DNA from: Microbispora hainanensis
Lineage (GTDB): Bacteria; Actinomycetota; Actinomycetes; Streptosporangiales; Streptosporangiaceae
Direction of reading: 5' to 3'
Length of the DNA: 64,000 nt
Assembly: GCF_036186745.1 (NCBI RefSeq)
Contig: NZ_CP108086.1
Span: forward strand, 5,394,001 to 5,458,000
The number at the start of each line of letters is the position of its first letter. Within the stretch, counting starts at the first letter, position 1. The position numbers and the translations under genes were made by a program. The notes below the pieces were generated by a model. That model made no database searches, was not told where the DNA came from, and saw only the letters and a list, made by a program, of their open reading frames with translations. Below are positions 53,609 to 61,030 of the stretch, one piece after another.

Positions 53609-53682
53609 CGGGACGTAGCGCAGTTTGGCAGCGCACTTGACTGGGGGTCAAGGGGTCGTGGGTTCAAATCCCGCCGTCCCGA
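53609..53682 (+). tRNA. tRNA-Pro (GGG anticodon)
   Basis: 74 bases. Acceptor stem CGGGACG with CGTCCCG, D-arm GCGC...GCGC, anticodon stem CTTGA/TCAAG around CTGGGGG (anticodon GGG, reads CCC), and T-arm GTGGG with TTCAAAT loop and CCCGC. The 3' CCA is not encoded. tRNA 3' ends are frequent sites of integrative elements; the genes on the downstream side include an anti-phage module. No duplicated 3' end was found. Confidence 0.95.
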
Positions 53683-53701
53683 CACTGTTCTAGCAGGTCA
53701 G

Positions 53702-53733
53702 AGCCACAGTTCCCAAGATCGGGGATTGTGGCT
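53702..53733 (+). terminator. Terminator after tRNA-Pro
   Basis: AGCCAC (53702-53707) and GTGGCT (53728-53733) form a stem followed by TTTCT, a rho-independent-type signal. Confidence 0.6.
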
Positions 53734-54094
53734 TTTCTGTTGTGTCACCCAGGTGTCATCAAGAGTCGCCCTCCCGGACCGTGCCGCCCGGTGACAGATG
53801 TCTGTCCAGCGTGTCACCGCATTCGCCGGTCCTCTGGCCGGGGGAGCGCCTCGTGTTCAAACGGACTGGGAGATCTACACCGTAAAGGACCCTGCTTCTG
53901 AGCGGTAGGAACTTGATCGACAACGCATCCGCAGCGGGAAGCCATCGCAGACGCCCGTAGCTGCCCTGGCGACCTTCCTGGCTACGACTTGGTGACCGTC
54001 GTTCGCCACACCGACGCTGGGGACGTGGAGAGCTGCGAGCCGGGGCTGGGAGCAGTGCGTTGTCACCTGTAGCGAGCATCGGTAGGTTCCGATC
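53734..54094. other. Gene-free stretch between tRNA and Lsr2/DUF6461 gene
   Basis: About 360 bases. Frames are broken and no homology is recognised. Base composition is less GC-rich than the chromosome around it. May be debris at the tRNA end of an inserted region. Confidence 0.4.
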
Positions 54095-54883
54095 ATGTCC
54101 GACGCCGACTTCACTCCGCTCCGTGTCACCCAGGTGGCGTACGGGCGTGACATCGACTTGGCGATCCGGGAGTGGGCGCGGGCCAATGGACACCCGATCA
54201 GCGATTGCGGCCGGGTCGGTCACGGGCTCGTCGAGGCATTCTTCGCTGCCAACCCTGACGTGTATGAGCGGGCTGAGAAGACCGAGGCGGTGCATGCCGC
54301 CGCCCGCATGCCCGGTGCCTCGCCGGAGGACTATGCGTGGCAGGACGAGGGCCCGCTGGGACCGATCTACACGATCACCCTCGTCAGGGGAGTGGAGGAG
54401 TACGAGGTGCTGCGGCGGTTGGGCGCCGCCCCGGAACACATCCGCCTGATCGACGTGGATGAGTACCCCGACTCCAGCCGCACAGAGATCGTCACGGTAC
54501 GGCGGGCGGGAGATTGGACCATCGTGATCGAGGAGTGCGGCTGGCTCGGCGTGCAACGCGAGGTCATCGGTAAGCTGTCCCGCGATGGCGAGGAGGCTGT
54601 CGCCGTGATGCGACACGATTACGCCGCCAGGCACGACTTCGCCTACGCCCTCGACGGTGAGCTCGTCACCGGTTTCGATCCGAGCCAACCCGGAACCCGC
54701 TGGGGCACCGCACCCGACCGGCTCAACCGGCATCTTCGCCAGCTCGGCATCGACCCGGCCACCGACGACTGGATCGACAACGCCATCCAGGCCGTCCTCG
54801 CGCTTGCCGGCCGAATCTCCGGCGTCGTGGTCACACCCGCGCACATCGAGCGTCCCGTTCTCGGTGCTGCATTCTTCCGTTGA
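54095..54883 (+). CDS. Lsr2-type DNA-binding domain fused to a DUF6461 domain
   Basis: 262 residues. Residues 18-45 (LAIREWARANGHPISDCGRV) match the C-terminal DNA-binding motif of Lsr2, the actinobacterial nucleoid protein that binds AT-rich, foreign DNA in the minor groove through an RGR-type loop; here the loop reads DCGRV. Residues from about 145 on (WTIVIEECGWLGVQREVIGK, RHDYAARHDFAYALDGELV) fit DUF6461, a poorly known domain in defence-linked genes. No dimerisation domain of Lsr2 is present. Lies between the tRNA and the defence operon, perhaps as a sensor or regulator. Confidence 0.65.
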   Translation: MSDADFTPLRVTQVAYGRDIDLAIREWARANGHPISDCGRVGHGLVEAFFAANPDVYERAEKTEAVHAAARMPGASPEDYAWQDEGPLGPIYTITLVRGVEEYEVLRRLGAAPEHIRLIDVDEYPDSSRTEIVTVRRAGDWTIVIEECGWLGVQREVIGKLSRDGEEAVAVMRHDYAARHDFAYALDGELVTGFDPSQPGTRWGTAPDRLNRHLRQLGIDPATDDWIDNAIQAVLALAGRISGVVVTPAHIERPVLGAAFFR

Positions 54884-55207
54884 AGCCGGCTCTGCCGCCT
54901 CGGTGTCCGGCTGATCCAAACCGGCGTAGAGGCCGGATGGTCAACTGCGAGTTCTCCGGGCCGACTTGCAGCCGGACGATAGTCGGAGGTTCTTCCACTG
55001 GGGTCATGGGACGGTTACGGAAGGCGTCGAATTGTCCCTTATCGTGGTTTTATTCCTGCCCGTAATTGTGGTTCAAGTTGATAACGAGGTGATTGCTCGA
55101 ACGGTAGGGCAAAGGCGTTCGGGGCTAGTGTTCACTCGTGCTTCTTGATCGCATCCACACGGCTTCTCGGTCTGCTGATCGTGCGTGTGATCGGAAGAGG
55201 TGAGCGC
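54884..55207. other. Leader region of the defence operon
   Basis: 324 bases with lower GC than its surroundings, especially 55030-55110, and no gene. A TTGATA at 55078-55083 may be a -35 element, but no good -10 is paired with it. It must contain the promoter for the three-gene operon. Confidence 0.45.
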
Positions 55208-57451
55208 GTGGGATTCTTGGACCGTTTTCGGGGTGAGCCGGGCCGGCGTCGAGCGGCCGAGGGGCATCATCCGTCCGGGCACGACGGTAGGCAGGCTGCA
55301 GCTCCCCGCCGCGCGGTAGTCCCTGCAGGAACGGGATATCCGCAGCAGCCGCAGTCGCCCCCGCCTCCGCCGCCTCCCGTGGGACCTTGGCTGCCGCCAG
55401 GCGTCGGGGTCGGCGTCGCGGGGCTCAACATCGTCGGCGGCCTGCTGTATGTGGGCGCCGGTTTACCGTCGGTATCGGGGCAGACGGTCGAACCGGCGTT
55501 GATCGACCCGCGACTGCCCGTCGACCTGCGCCGTCCGGATTGGACGGGACAGGGCCTGCGCTACTGGCCGTCCTATGCGTCGATTCCGCCGGATTCGCGT
55601 GCCGCCTATCTGTCCTGGCTCGCCGACGGACGGCGCTACCCGCATGTGCCCATTGGCTATGTGTTCCTCTACTTCTATGGCCTGGAACGACGGGCTCTGC
55701 ACGATCTACGCCTGGATCGTTCCACTGTGGGGCGCGAGTTGTCGATCATCCAGGCCGAGGTTCGCCGGCTTCTCCGGATCTACGGTGAGAACTCCTCCTT
55801 CCGGAGCTATGCCGGTGAGTTCGACCAAGTCCTCGACCTGCTGATCCTGGCGGGCCAGGACACGCAGCCCAGCGCTGGGCATCCCCCTGAGCCTTCTCGC
55901 GAGGTGACGCCGCTTCGGCTGACGGTGGGATTGGGGGAGTTCGCGGCGGAGGGACGACCAGTCCCCGCCGAGTGGGCGTTGGCCTGGATCCGCTCCCACC
56001 CCGACTACTACCCGCGTACTCCGGCGACGCGTTGCGCCGCTCAGTTCGATGCGCTGTTCCGCGCGCGGTACGCCGCGCGTCATCGTGCCGGGCTGGTGGT
56101 CCGGCCTGGACGCAAGGAAGTCTCCCTTGATTACCGGCCCGCCAGTGCCGGCTTCGGCGGGTACCCCCGGCTGACACTCCACGGCATCCCCGACGTGCTG
56201 ACGCTGGCCGCGCCGACACGCAAGCTCGTGGCGTTGGCTGACGAGTGCACCACCGACTTGGACGCCTACAGCCGTTTCGTCGGACGCTTCCCGGACCGGC
56301 AGGCGAGTGTGCAGGCGCAAGCACTGCTTCCGGCAGAGTTGCTGGACCTCGAGTCGGGAGGCGCGAGCCGCGCCGTGACGTGGGCGCGGAACCGTCTTGG
56401 CGCGCAGGAGACCGCTCTCGTGCCGACGGAGGAGTTCGCCGCGCTGCTGGACGCGTCTGAGGCCAAGCCGGCGAAGAAAGACGTCGTCGCTTTGGCGCAA
56501 CTGCTGGGCAGCGTGGGGATCGGAGTCGAACCCGATCCGCGGCTGGGCGGTCCGGTCCTGTCGAGCGGTCCCATGGTGCTTTTCGCCGCTCCGGGCGGTC
56601 CCACCGCGGCATCCTCGGACGCCTACCGCGCCGCGACGATCCTGCTCCATCTGGCGGCGGCCGTGAGCGCCGCCGACGGGGAGACCTCGGAGGCGGAGCA
56701 GGGTCATCTCAGCGATCACCTCGAACGGGCCCTGCACCTGACACAGGACGAACGCCGGCGCCTGCACGCGCACCTGCGCTGGCTCATCGCCACCGAGGTG
56801 AAGCTCACCGGCCTGACCCGGCGCCTGGCCGAGATCGACGAGAGACAGCGGGCCTACGTGGCGGAGTTCCTCACCGGGGTGGCCGCAGCCGACGGTCATA
56901 TTTCTCCTGAAGAGGTCAAGACCCTCAGCCGTATCTATCGGCTGCTCGGACTCGATCCCGCCATGGTGAAGGCCGTGCTGCCTGCCGCCGCTCACCCCGC
57001 TCCAGCGGCCGGTCCAGTGGTCGTTCGCCATGCTGAGCCGGAGCCGGGCTTTGCGATTCCCCGCCCTGTCGACGTTCGAACGGCCCCGGCCGCCGTGCAC
57101 CTCGACCACGGTGCCATCGCCGCCAAGCTTGAGGAGACGGCCAGGGTGGGGGCGTTGCTGGGCTCGATCTTCACTGAAGAGGAGCCGACACACGCGCCCT
57201 CGCCGCCTCCGGCCGCTGATCCGGTCGCCGGGCTGGACGGCCCGCACTCCGGCCTCGTACGCGGCCTCCCGCAGGTGGAGCAGTTGTCTCGGGGGGAGTT
57301 CGAGGACCTCGCGGCGAAATGGAACCTGCTCCCCGATGGCGCACTCGATCGCATCAACGAAGCCGCCTACGAGGTGGGCGGTGAGCCGTTACTCGAGGGA
57401 GACGACCCGATCTGGGTCAATCGATACCTGCTGGGAGAGATGCTGACGTGA
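55208..57451 (+). CDS. sngA: TerB-domain protein, SngA of a Shango-type anti-phage system
   Basis: 747 residues from GTG 55208 (AGAGG ribosome-binding site). A Pro-rich disordered N-terminus (30-60), then a TerB-N domain (about 75-270; VGGLLYVGAGLPSV, YVFLYFYGLERRAL). A TerB-like helical domain around 480-590 (HLAAAVSAADGETSEAEQGHL and VAAADGHISPEEVKTLSRIY) carries acidic metal-type motifs. A C-terminal TerB-C region closes at 57451. In Shango, SngA works with an ATPase and a helicase. It overlaps sngB by GTGA, so the three genes are one operon. Confidence 0.8.
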   Translation: MGFLDRFRGEPGRRRAAEGHHPSGHDGRQAAAPRRAVVPAGTGYPQQPQSPPPPPPPVGPWLPPGVGVGVAGLNIVGGLLYVGAGLPSVSGQTVEPALIDPRLPVDLRRPDWTGQGLRYWPSYASIPPDSRAAYLSWLADGRRYPHVPIGYVFLYFYGLERRALHDLRLDRSTVGRELSIIQAEVRRLLRIYGENSSFRSYAGEFDQVLDLLILAGQDTQPSAGHPPEPSREVTPLRLTVGLGEFAAEGRPVPAEWALAWIRSHPDYYPRTPATRCAAQFDALFRARYAARHRAGLVVRPGRKEVSLDYRPASAGFGGYPRLTLHGIPDVLTLAAPTRKLVALADECTTDLDAYSRFVGRFPDRQASVQAQALLPAELLDLESGGASRAVTWARNRLGAQETALVPTEEFAALLDASEAKPAKKDVVALAQLLGSVGIGVEPDPRLGGPVLSSGPMVLFAAPGGPTAASSDAYRAATILLHLAAAVSAADGETSEAEQGHLSDHLERALHLTQDERRRLHAHLRWLIATEVKLTGLTRRLAEIDERQRAYVAEFLTGVAAADGHISPEEVKTLSRIYRLLGLDPAMVKAVLPAAAHPAPAAGPVVVRHAEPEPGFAIPRPVDVRTAPAAVHLDHGAIAAKLEETARVGALLGSIFTEEEPTHAPSPPPAADPVAGLDGPHSGLVRGLPQVEQLSRGEFEDLAAKWNLLPDGALDRINEAAYEVGGEPLLEGDDPIWVNRYLLGEMLT

Positions 57452-58800
57452 CCACGACGATCCCGATCCGCCCCCGCGAGCGTGACGCCCTCCTCCAGTC
57501 GCTGCGGGCGGGCGTAGTCCCTCGGGCCGGCCAGCGGCATGTGCAGGTGGGCCGGGCCCCCGAGGTCCAGGCCCTGGTGACCGACATCGATCGAATCGCC
57601 GGTGGTGGGTCAGCCGTGCGTTTCGTCATCGGTGACTTCGGCGCGGGCAAGACCTTCTTCCTGCACCTGGTGCGATCCATCGCTCTGGAGAAGAAACTGG
57701 TCACCGTTCACGCCGATCTCAACCCCGACCGCCGCCTGCACTCCACCGGCGGCCAGGCACGCAGCCTCTACGCCGAACTGATGCGCAACATGGCCACCAG
57801 AGCCAAGCCCGACGGCGGGGCACTTTCCGCAGTCGTCGAGAGGTTCGTCTCCACGGCACTTGCCGAGGCCCAGCAGGTCGGCGCCGACCCCGGGCAGGTC
57901 ATCCGTACGCGCCTTGCCCACCTGGCCGAGATGACCGGAGGATACGACTTCGCCGAGGTCGTCGGCGCCTACTGGCGCGGGCACGACAGCGGTGACGAGC
58001 AACTGAAGGCCGCCGCGGTGCGCTGGCTGCGGGCCGAATACTCCACCAAGACCGAAGCCAGGTCCGCGCTCGGCGTCCGGACGATCATCGACGACGCGAC
58101 CTTCCACGACCACCTCAAGCTGATGAGCCGGTTCGTCCGCCTGGCCGGATACGACGGCATGCTGGTGTGCCTGGATGAGATGGTCAACCTCTACAAGCTG
58201 GCCTCCACCCAGGCCCGCAACGCCAACTACGAGCAGATCCTGCGTATCTTCAACGACACACTGCAGGGCACGGCCGCGCACCTGGGCTTCTTGTTCGGCG
58301 GCACCCCCGAGTTCCTCACCGATTCCCGTCGCGGGCTCTACAGCTACGCCGCACTGCAGTCGCGGCTGGCGGAGAACTCCTTCGCCAGGGACGGGCTGGT
58401 GGACTACTCCGGGCCAGTGCTCCGTCTTACCGCCTTGACCCCGGAGGACCTCTACGTCCTACTCACGAAGATCCGGCACGTCTACGCCTTCGGCGACCCG
58501 TCCCGCTATCTCGTCGCCGACGACGCGCTGCCCGCGTTCATGCACCACTGCTCCAGCCGGGTCGGTGACGCCTACTTCCGCACGCCACGAACGACGATCA
58601 AAGCCTTCTGCGACCTGCTGGCCGTACTGGAGCAGAATCCCGGAGCGGACTGGCGGCGGATTCTCCCCTCGGTCGAGCTGGACCAGGAGAGCAACCCCGA
58701 TCTGGCCCCGCTCGAAGAAGACGAGGGTCTCGCCACGCAGGCATCGGTGACCCAGCCCGGAGCTTTCGGTGACGACGACCTCGCCTCCTTCCGGCTCTGA
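57448..58800 (+). CDS. sngB: BrxD-like ATPase (DUF2791), SngB of a Shango-type system
   Basis: 450 residues. Walker A IGDFGAGKTFFLHLVR near residue 60, Walker B DGMLVCLDEMVNLYK near residue 240, and sensor region FLFGGTPEFLTDSRRGLYSY. These match the BREX BrxD/DUF2791 ATPase, which lies near defence operons. GTG 57448 overlaps the sngA stop, and its 3' end overlaps sngC by 32 bases. Likely drives the helicase/TerB complex on phage DNA; direct evidence for this protein is lacking. Confidence 0.85.
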   Translation: MTTTIPIRPRERDALLQSLRAGVVPRAGQRHVQVGRAPEVQALVTDIDRIAGGGSAVRFVIGDFGAGKTFFLHLVRSIALEKKLVTVHADLNPDRRLHSTGGQARSLYAELMRNMATRAKPDGGALSAVVERFVSTALAEAQQVGADPGQVIRTRLAHLAEMTGGYDFAEVVGAYWRGHDSGDEQLKAAAVRWLRAEYSTKTEARSALGVRTIIDDATFHDHLKLMSRFVRLAGYDGMLVCLDEMVNLYKLASTQARNANYEQILRIFNDTLQGTAAHLGFLFGGTPEFLTDSRRGLYSYAALQSRLAENSFARDGLVDYSGPVLRLTALTPEDLYVLLTKIRHVYAFGDPSRYLVADDALPAFMHHCSSRVGDAYFRTPRTTIKAFCDLLAVLEQNPGADWRRILPSVELDQESNPDLAPLEEDEGLATQASVTQPGAFGDDDLASFRL

Positions 58801-61030
58801 CGCCTTCCAGCTGCTCCACCCCAAGGTGCAACGGTGGATCTGGCAGCAGGACTGGCCCGAGCTGCGCCCGGCCCAGGAGGCGGCCGCCGCTCCCGTTCTC
58901 GCGGGTGAGACAGACGTGCTCATCGCCGCGGCAACCGCCTCGGGGAAGACCGAGGCCGCGTTCCTTCCCGTCTGCTCGGCGCTGACCGCGGATCCGCCGC
59001 AAACCGGCGGGTTCGCTGCGATATACATCAGCCCGCTTAAGGCGTTGATCAACGACCAGTACGGCAGGCTCGACGAGCTGTGCGAACACCTGGACATCCC
59101 GGTGGCCCGCTGGCACGGCGACGTCGGCGCCGGCGTCAAGAGCAAGCTCCTCGACCGGCCCCGGGGCATCCTCCTGATCACCCCCGAATCGCTGGAGGCG
59201 ATGTTCGTCCTGCGCGGGTGGAAGATGCGCGACCTGGCCGGTGCCCTGCGCTACGTCGTCATCGACGAGATGCACTCGTTCATGGGCACCGAGCGCGGAG
59301 CACAACTGCAGTCCCTCATGCACCGGCTCGACCTGGCCGCCCGCCGCCGCGTCCCACGGATCGGACTATCGGCCACACTCGGCGACATGCGCGCGGCGGC
59401 GGATTTCCTCCGGCCCGGCAGCGGGGACAAGGTCACCGTGATCGTGTCGGACGCCGACGGTCAAGAGCTTCAGTTGCAGGTGCGCGGCTACGTCGAAACG
59501 CAGCCCAACCTCTCTGCCCTGGACAGAACCGCCGATGAGGACGCGGAGCAACAGACGGGCGAGGAGGACTCAGGGGAGCGGTCCGCCATCGCCGATCACC
59601 TGTTCACGACCCTGCGCGGCTCCCACAACCTGATCTTCGCGAATTCCCGGGGCGCTGTGGAGGAGTACACCGACCTGCTCAGCCGTCGATGCGACCAGGC
59701 GGGCGTGCCGAACGAGTTCGTCCCGCACCACGGAAACCTCTCCAAGGACATCCGCGAGCATGCCGAGTCCCGCCTCAAGGACCGTGCCCGGCCGGTCACC
59801 GCCGTCTGCACCTCCACCTTGGAAATGGGGATCGACATCGGATCGGTCTCGTCGGTCGCGCAGGTCGGAGCGCCCCCCGGGGTCGCCGCCCTGCGTCAGC
59901 GCCTCGGACGTTCCGGGCGACGCGGAGGGCCGGCGATCCTGCGGGTCTACATCCGCGAGCGTGAGCTGTCACCAACGCTGCACCCAGCCGAGGAACTTCG
60001 CGCTCAGCTCGTGCAGACCATCGCGACGATCGAGCTTCTGCTACAGCGCTGGTACGAACCCCCACACGGAACGGCGCTGCATCTGTCCACCCTGGTGCAG
60101 CAGACTCTCTCGCTGATCGCCCAACACGGCGGCATCACCCCGAACGACGCCTACCGAACGCTCTGCGGCCAGGGCCCTTTTCGGCTGGTCGACGCCGCGA
60201 CCTTCGCCGCCCTGCTGCGCGACCTCGGCGAAGCGACGATCATCCGGCAGGAGACCGATGGCCTCCTTCTGCACGGTGACGCGGGGGAGAAGCTGGTCAA
60301 CCATTACACCTTCTACGCCGCCTTCGCGGCTCCCACCGAATACCGCATCGTGCATGGGGGACGGGCTCTCGGAAGCCTGCCCATCGAACAGTCACTCCCC
60401 GAAGGTGCTCTGCTGATTTTCGCGGGCCGGCGTTGGCGAGTCCTCGCCATCGACGCGCGGGCAAAGGTCATCGAGGTCGCGCGAGCATCAGGCGGCCGCC
60501 CGCCACGCTTCACGGGAGCCGGCCCGGAGGTACACGACCGCATTCGGACCGAGATGCGGCGCGTTTACCAGGACAGCGCTGTTCCCATCTACCTGGATGC
60601 GACCGCCCAGCGCCTCTTGGAGGAGGGCCGCGCCGCCTACCGCCGCTTCGGCCTGGAAGCCCAGCCGATCCTGGCCTACGGAAACGACACCCTGCTCTTC
60701 CCGTTCTGCGGTGATGCGATCATGACGACGATCGCGCTCACCCTGCATACCAGGGGAGTCAGTGTGGAACGACAGGGGTTGGCACTGGCACTGTCCGGAG
60801 CATCGCCGCAGACCACCGCCGACCTGCTGAGAGAAATGAGCGAATCCGAGCTGCCCGCAGCGACCGAGCTGGCTCGGCTGATCCCCGACAAGAGAATCGA
60901 CAAGTACGACGAATTGATCGGGGAGGAGCTCTTGGCCCGATCTTTCGCTGCCCGGCAGCTTGATGTTCCTGGTGCTCGAAACGTGATCAGCCGTCTCGCC
61001 GAGCAGAGCGCCCTCGCCTGTCTCTCGTAG
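58769..61030 (+). CDS. sngC: DEAD/DEAH-box helicase, SngC of a Shango-type system
   Basis: 753 residues. Helicase motifs in order: Q motif region LRPAQEAAAAPVL, motif I ATASGKTEAAF, Ia SPLKALINDQYG, motif II DEMH, III SATLGD, IV-VI HGNLSKDIREHAESRLKD and LGRSGRRGG. The C-terminal half has no assigned domain and resembles Lhr-like helicases. GTG 58769 lies in the 3' end of sngB. Same protein order as the three-gene Shango system described in Pseudomonas and other bacteria. Confidence 0.85.
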   Translation: MTTTSPPSGSDAFQLLHPKVQRWIWQQDWPELRPAQEAAAAPVLAGETDVLIAAATASGKTEAAFLPVCSALTADPPQTGGFAAIYISPLKALINDQYGRLDELCEHLDIPVARWHGDVGAGVKSKLLDRPRGILLITPESLEAMFVLRGWKMRDLAGALRYVVIDEMHSFMGTERGAQLQSLMHRLDLAARRRVPRIGLSATLGDMRAAADFLRPGSGDKVTVIVSDADGQELQLQVRGYVETQPNLSALDRTADEDAEQQTGEEDSGERSAIADHLFTTLRGSHNLIFANSRGAVEEYTDLLSRRCDQAGVPNEFVPHHGNLSKDIREHAESRLKDRARPVTAVCTSTLEMGIDIGSVSSVAQVGAPPGVAALRQRLGRSGRRGGPAILRVYIRERELSPTLHPAEELRAQLVQTIATIELLLQRWYEPPHGTALHLSTLVQQTLSLIAQHGGITPNDAYRTLCGQGPFRLVDAATFAALLRDLGEATIIRQETDGLLLHGDAGEKLVNHYTFYAAFAAPTEYRIVHGGRALGSLPIEQSLPEGALLIFAGRRWRVLAIDARAKVIEVARASGGRPPRFTGAGPEVHDRIRTEMRRVYQDSAVPIYLDATAQRLLEEGRAAYRRFGLEAQPILAYGNDTLLFPFCGDAIMTTIALTLHTRGVSVERQGLALALSGASPQTTADLLREMSESELPAATELARLIPDKRIDKYDELIGEELLARSFAARQLDVPGARNVISRLAEQSALACLS

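Follow-up and report, generated by a model that had tools for sequence, protein, structure and literature searches.

The closest described system to the locus reported here is the Shango operon of Pseudomonas aeruginosa PA14 and Escherichia coli, which encodes the proteins SngA, SngB and SngC, the last in a plain form (the PADLOC model spans 720 positions, and SngC measures 745-763 amino acids (aa) in five Pseudomonas loci). According to the available passages of PMC10250203, the PA14 operon protects strain PAO1 from several phages and also lies in a hotspot that receives mobile elements. A homologous ATPase-helicase pair, BrxD and BrxHI, occurs in type-2 bacteriophage exclusion (BREX) systems; the accessible parts of PMC12839542 describe the two as tightly linked, class BrxD as an ORC/Cdc6 ATPase and suggest it as the loader of the BrxHI helicase, and the main text of that paper uses 'Shango' and 'TerB' 0 times. 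SngC has been grouped with BrxHI, DruE and DpdJ in the accessible parts of PMC12278908. This study examined a 64,000-nucleotide stretch of the Microbispora hainanensis chromosome (hereafter the window; G000:C1:5394001-5458000 of a one-contig genome of 8.8 Mb), which, judging from profile searches and genome comparisons, likely carries a true, complete and intact Shango anti-phage operon on DNA inserted at a tRNA-Pro(GGG) gene.

The operon adds one member to an already known kind of system. It encodes the same three proteins as PA14 and E. coli Shango and differs in its actinobacterial host, its tRNA-Pro(GGG) site and its kinship to an exonuclease-bearing lineage, a comparison made without the PA14 and E. 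coli sequences themselves. Exonuclease-fused actinobacterial Shango is the same operon, with a PF00929 domain behind the helicase; the SngC of the window ends before that domain. An earlier interpretation of this DNA (the sequence-only reading) had called the module an actinobacterial version of Shango, a label that has to be amended, since many Actinomycetota SngC proteins carry the exonuclease and that of the window does not. The three genes are:

55208..57451, plus strand: sngA, a TerB_N-TerB-TerB_C protein of 747 aa counted from the GTG at 55208 (PADLOC, Pfam)
57448..58800, plus strand: sngB, a BrxD-like AAA+ ATPase of 450 aa with Walker A GDFGAGKT and Walker B MLVCLDE
58769..61030, plus strand: sngC, a superfamily 2 (SF2) DEAD/DEAH helicase of 753 aa with intact motifs and without the C-terminal exonuclease of its relatives

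These genes are adjacent and in order on the plus strand between 55208 and 61030; the sngA end at 57451 lies beyond the sngB start at 57448, giving a GTGA overlap of 4 base pairs (bp), and sngB ends at 58800 with sngC starting at 58769, an overlap of 32 bp that leads to the sngC stop at 61030. The coordinates, GTGA overlap and domain order of the sequence-only reading were thereby confirmed, as was its assignment to Shango in the described gene order, with SngA, SngB and SngC as top PADLOC matches: SngA at 1.2e-88 (297 bits; runner-up family 28 bits), SngB at 2.3e-180 (598 bits; runner-up 147 bits) and SngC at 2.1e-289 (960 bits; runner-up 420 bits). The ATPase and helicase thus fell into the SngB and SngC families and not into unrelated ones. 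Pfam recognised TerB_N (5.4e-51), TerB (3.9e-14) and TerB_C (8.6e-19) in SngA, BrxC_BrxD (3.6e-153) in SngB, and DEAD (2.7e-30) and Helicase_C (1.2e-14) in SngC. By these E-values the three-gene block is far beyond chance. The start of sngA is probably the GTG at 55208, near a purine-rich AGAGG, over the TTG at 55145 chosen by the open reading frame (ORF) caller.

Conservation extends beyond this one copy. SngA, SngB and SngC stand in the same order at all 80 related loci, some of them on cut contigs; because these loci are the best 80 of 540 confirmed, the sample leans towards near relatives. A tree of SngB plus the SngC core was built from the 80 loci and the window by a quick method, with support from the SH-like approximate likelihood ratio test (SH-aLRT) only; it holds 74 rows after removal of L015, L028 and L065 (contig without a complete SngC), L017 and L047 (short), and L021 and L061 (broken frames), and loci L161-L174, partly repeats (for example L163 = L011, L166 = L013, L168 = L018), stand outside it. 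Walker A is kept in every SngB of the 74 rows, and DE.H and R.GR.GR in every SngC; the Walker A and B and helicase motifs are likewise intact in the window. The window SngB is 97% identical to that of M. hainanensis locus L003. Pairwise ratios of nonsynonymous to synonymous substitution (dN/dS) for sngABC were 0.09-0.21 between the window and three other Microbispora copies plus G130, a genome outside the genus, with 0.11-0.18 for SngC among Microbispora; sngA, sngB and sngC are under purifying selection.

The operon stands behind a tRNA gene and a short run of further features:

53609..53683, plus strand: tRNA-Pro, anticodon GGG, the predicted integration target (ARAGORN)
53641..53705, plus strand: putative attachment-site (att) core, the tRNA 3' half plus about 22 bp, directly repeated elsewhere
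53684..54094, no strand assigned: apparent left end of the inserted block, shared in part, up to 54033, with the other att copy of this genome
54095..54883, plus strand: Lsr2 DNA-binding plus DUF6461 protein of 262 aa (Pfam), a predicted island passenger
54884..55207, plus strand: low-GC leader (58% GC, minimum 52.4%), probable operon promoter region

Copies of the att core with 98-99% identity occur at G000:C1:5594939, G003:C55:57410-57474 and G006:C54:9355, and G000:C1:5594939-5595334 matches the core and left end at 90% identity over 397 bases. The tRNA-Pro(GGG) gene and its upstream flank were found in 14 of 15 Microbispora genomes (absent from G012). Homology to the window ends within 53683-53705 in nine of the 13 other tRNA-bearing genomes, at 53741 in G008 and at 53825 in G011, and continues from the tRNA through Shango in G003 and G005. 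Because the DNA behind the tRNA gene varies in this manner between Microbispora genomes, the gene is, on comparative grounds, an integration hotspot. In G003 (C55) the left end, the Lsr2/DUF6461 gene and Shango begin at the intact tRNA, with a second core copy 31 kilobases (kb) on. G006 (C54) has a stretch that matches the one of G003 at 97% identity for at least 22 kb; it begins at a partial tRNA copy, and a core copy of 41 bases (93%) follows after about 31.7 kb. The intact tRNA of G006 lies on another contig, followed by other DNA. A direct repeat of the tRNA 3' part is therefore present at the other end, about 31 kb apart, in both genomes.

The right side of the block differs between copies. 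Between G000 and G003 or G006, homology spans the block and breaks off no more than two bases from the sngC end, and G005 keeps the window arrangement further, to 5463039; two different flanks follow the sngC stop directly, one shared by G000 and G005 and the other by G003 and G006. G000 has its second core copy at a distance of 147 kb, accompanied by some 390 bases of left end, and the pairing of this copy with the first is unsure. A single 147 kb element between the two copies is not claimed because G006 and G011 likewise have the DNA from 5465 kb on close behind the tRNA; a separate insertion may account for the second copy, and an integrase-like gene (G000:C1:5585969-5587042; PF00589, 4.1e-8) lies 8 kb before it. 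Overall, the Shango block was apparently acquired via a mobile island, as suggested by the hotspot, the patchy distribution and the position of the block behind copies of the tRNA 3' half, which bears out the earlier proposal of an acquisition tied to the tRNA. This tRNA-Pro hotspot would be worth searching for additional cargo in Microbispora. The 31 kb stretch G003:C55:57410-88806 (L152/L153) also encodes DnaK (HSP70), DUF2795, DUF2716 and a cyclic nucleotide monophosphate (cNMP)-binding oxidoreductase, among others, and its first 22 kb recur in G006:C54; between the two G000 att copies lies an open frame of 4125 aa (L146:6503-18880).

Presence among relatives is patchy rather than fixed, so that fixation cannot be held against the sequence-only reading: Shango was found in four of 15 Microbispora genomes, and SngB matches (E<=1e-100) in 18 of 200 family genomes, both counts including the genome of the window. 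Loci L003 and L004 coincide with G005:C197 and G003:C55 and are not independent counts. In three of 14 family-genome loci SngA is only 29-32% identical. Shango is widespread, with SngB relatives in 680 of 72,556 plasmid records (E<=1e-60; the best is a chromosome-sized record); none was found in 50,697 phage records (E<=1e-30). Among the 680 plasmid records, 449 are from Klebsiella and 144 from Salmonella, and 540 are predicted conjugative. A tRNA is present in six (L003, L004, L010, L012, L033 and L050) of the 38 related loci scanned for one, in five cases no more than about 1.6 kb from the operon; that of L050 (Lentzea fradiae, L050:14117-14170) is a tRNA-Val 53 bases behind a fused sngC, another tRNA-linked Shango.

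Comparison of the related loci revealed a C-terminal DnaQ-like 3'-5' exonuclease on SngC in 26 of the 74 comparable rows, all from Actinomycetota (L005-L009, L011, L012, L014, L016, L019, L020, L022-L024, L027, L029-L031, L033, L038, L041, L042, L045, L050, L052 and L057); G130 carries it as well. SngC measures 930-1301 aa in the fused rows. Within the actinobacterial clade 20 rows, among them the window (753 aa), are plain, with 729-784 aa; the 28 from other phyla are all plain, with 728-768 aa. Pfam RNase_T (PF00929) matched all seven full-length fused proteins scanned, at 1.2e-15 to 7.4e-24, and a strict DEDDh pattern is present in 22 of the 26. An exonuclease fused to a helicase is also found in DinG. 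Among solved structures, the L006 domain comes closest to the DinG 3'-5' exonuclease, PolC, DNA polymerase III epsilon (DnaQ) and Cas2-DEDDh, with Ribonuclease T last; in DinG (8zef) the exonuclease is N-terminal (residues 2-162), whereas in SngC it is C-terminal. On the tree, all fused rows fall inside a 46-row clade (support 98) that is nearly all Actinomycetota, and fusion requires six state changes against 21.5 with shuffled labels (0 of 500 as low). Distances of the exonuclease and of the helicase core correlate (Mantel r 0.92 over 26 rows; none of 2000 permutations reached it), and the two have therefore long travelled together. A search of titles and abstracts, mostly open-access, found no description of this fusion among the papers listed, which is no proof of its being unpublished. 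Behind the exonuclease of the 1301-aa Blastococcus SngC (L019:11277-15182) a TerB- and BRCT-like stretch is visible by eye, which Pfam matched to neither at E 0.001.

The gene in front of sngA, listed with the module by the sequence-only reading, is real (Pfam Lsr2_DNA-bd 4.7e-9, DUF6461 1.2e-32), but its membership did not hold up. A four-gene system, in which the Lsr2/DUF6461 protein would regulate Shango as silencer or sensor, gains from the gene being collinear, on the same strand and inside the shared block in all four Shango-bearing Microbispora genomes, from the 52% GC leader between it and sngA, and from the AT-rich DNA binding of Lsr2-type domains. It is nonetheless improbable: the gene is present in only two of the 80 related loci, both Microbispora (tblastn, E 1e-5), although 68 of the 80 extend more than 1.5 kb in front of sngA; it is split into two frames in G006 beside a whole sngABC; a partial copy stands without Shango in G009; and selection on it is weaker (dN/dS 0.33-0.49 vs 0.10-0.21 for sngABC in the same pairs). 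Close full copies occur in G000, G003 and G005, and more distant DUF6461 or Lsr2-part matches in all 15 Microbispora genomes. The comparisons indicate that the gene is a passenger of the island and no Shango subunit, the latter role being rejected for its distribution (2/80) and decay (the G006 split); a literature search on DUF6461 found no paper. The low-GC leader proved real, 55000-55144 having 52.4% GC vs 71.4% for the window (lowest 0.3% of 145-base stretches), and no sigma-70-type promoter match was found in it. That the operon is instead a fragment of a type-2 BREX (phage growth limitation, Pgl) system is hardly credible, even with SngB matching BrxD at 2e-43 and SngC matching BrxHI at 4.5e-126 in PADLOC, and was ruled out on scores: the SngB and SngC models outscore BrxD and BrxHI (598 vs 147 bits; 960 vs 420 bits), and SngB stays under the NCBIfam BrxD cut-off (144 of 350 bits). 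No PADLOC family matched the six adjoining genes scanned (the gene in front and five others), the genes scanned include no methyltransferase, PglZ or PglW and have a TerB protein instead, and a separate BrxD/BrxHI pair with a PglZ-like C-terminus, its BrxD at 3.5e-182, lies about 250 kb away. This partial type-2 BREX (G000:C1:5697000-5706100; L100:2216-11082) comprises that BrxD, a BrxHI of 1029 bits, a PP2C phosphatase and a protein of 522 aa whose C-terminus matches PglZ (9.7e-20); weak SngB matches (27-30%) in nine of 15 Microbispora genomes may be of the BREX kind, those of G000 being the ones scanned. A role in housekeeping or tellurite stress, outside phage defence, would fit the naming of TerB domains after tellurite resistance and the surroundings, where no complete other defence system was recognised: PADLOC matched six families in the 47 of 112 picked frames scanned behind the tRNA (G000:C1:5448000-5506000; L099, L141, L142), namely mad3 in two frames (best 3.8e-29), mad2 (4.4e-18), mad8 (3.8e-10), two DRT models and AriA, and no system assembled. 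Such a role is quite improbable, given the patchy presence at an integration site, the 680 plasmid records with an SngB relative and the direct tests of a homologous three-gene Pseudomonas operon reported in the available part of PMC10250203. Several points count against a defence operon on a mobile island: the block has no visible integrase next to it, PF00589 being matched no closer than about 109 kb upstream and 131 kb downstream; a literature search turned up no actinobacterial Shango that had been challenged with phage; a sequence search of the PDB gave no relative of SngB at E<=0.1; and solved relatives of SngA cover the TerB part only. Additionally, no integrase was found among the nine scanned of 25 picked frames of the G003 element.

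The absence of the exonuclease in the window also admits two histories. The window Shango probably lost its SngC exonuclease, as the phylogenetic setting suggests: all four Microbispora SngC copies end before it, and no exonuclease profile matched in the window, L003/L004 or the G003, G005 and G006 stretches, whereas Microbispora groups with the fused Acrocarpospora, Sphaerisporangium and Nonomuraea (support 89), the nearest rows outside the genus being Sphaerisporangium and Nonomuraea, both fused. The nearest fused SngC cores are 72-84% identical to that of the window, and G130, outside the tree, has the most similar SngB outside the genus (90%) with a fused SngC; DNA homology between the window and G130 spans 55364-61006 and ends before the exonuclease domain. 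Gain of the exonuclease several times in actinobacterial lineages, with Microbispora keeping an ancestral plain form and nothing lost, is unlikely. It would agree with the plain state of all 28 rows from other phyla and of 20 rows in the 46-row clade, and the six changes on the tree, as counts alone, cannot tell gain from loss; against it stand the correlation of fused-domain and helicase-core distances (r 0.92), the grouping of Microbispora with fused genera (SH-aLRT 89 on the quick tree), the fused G130, and L013 and L018, in which SngC ends at the apparent start of the exonuclease domain and the domain lies in another frame, respectively, as after loss. No remnant of the G130 domain was found behind sngC in the window, and the matches in G003 and G006 (<=27 bases, E >=0.003) are not credible. 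Loss as the preferred history, and the exonuclease as effector, meet several difficulties: L035 (Rhizohabitans) and L010 (Bailinhaonella), Streptosporangiaceae of the same 11-row clade, are plain, which weakens the case for loss; SngC is plain in 48 of 74 rows, so that a dispensable exonuclease cannot be the universal Shango effector; L023, L024 and L027 have E as the third acidic residue and L045 is without two motifs; and DEDDh enzymes include RNases (Ribonuclease T matched), so that DNA is the presumed substrate.

For the mechanism, SngA may sense infection or scaffold the response through its TerB parts, the ORC/Cdc6-like ATPase SngB may load or license the helicase SngC on phage DNA, and SngC would then move along that DNA and unwind it. 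Relatives with the exonuclease would use one polypeptide both to unwind the DNA and to digest its freed 3' end, amounting to helicase-driven destruction of phage DNA; in the window the last step would have to fall to a host nuclease, or unwinding alone would have to suffice, presumably as in proteobacterial Shango, whose sampled members are also without the exonuclease domain. Literature searches on TerB_N function found nothing useful, the accessible parts of PMC12458937 and PMC10952713 add nothing on the Shango mechanism, and none of the passages available from the cited papers names a Shango effector. A tentative scenario, rated somewhat short of an even chance, is that actinobacterial Shango was at its root a helicase-exonuclease machine, in which SngC, once loaded by SngB, both unwinds phage DNA and degrades it 3'-5' as one polypeptide, and that the exonuclease was then lost repeatedly, by clean truncation in Microbispora, truncation in L013, frame change in L018 and active-site decay in L045. 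The exonuclease-less SngC is nevertheless kept under selection in Microbispora; if the scenario is true, the window is a natural mutant selected without the nuclease, in which the core activity would be unwinding or loading and nucleases would be add-ons. The exonuclease, found in 26 of 74 rows and missing from close sisters, points to DNA-end processing. Repeated loss would provide natural pairs of similar operons of which one has the effector and the other lacks it, and the fused and plain close sisters are ready-made comparison pairs that give a handle on the effector of Shango.

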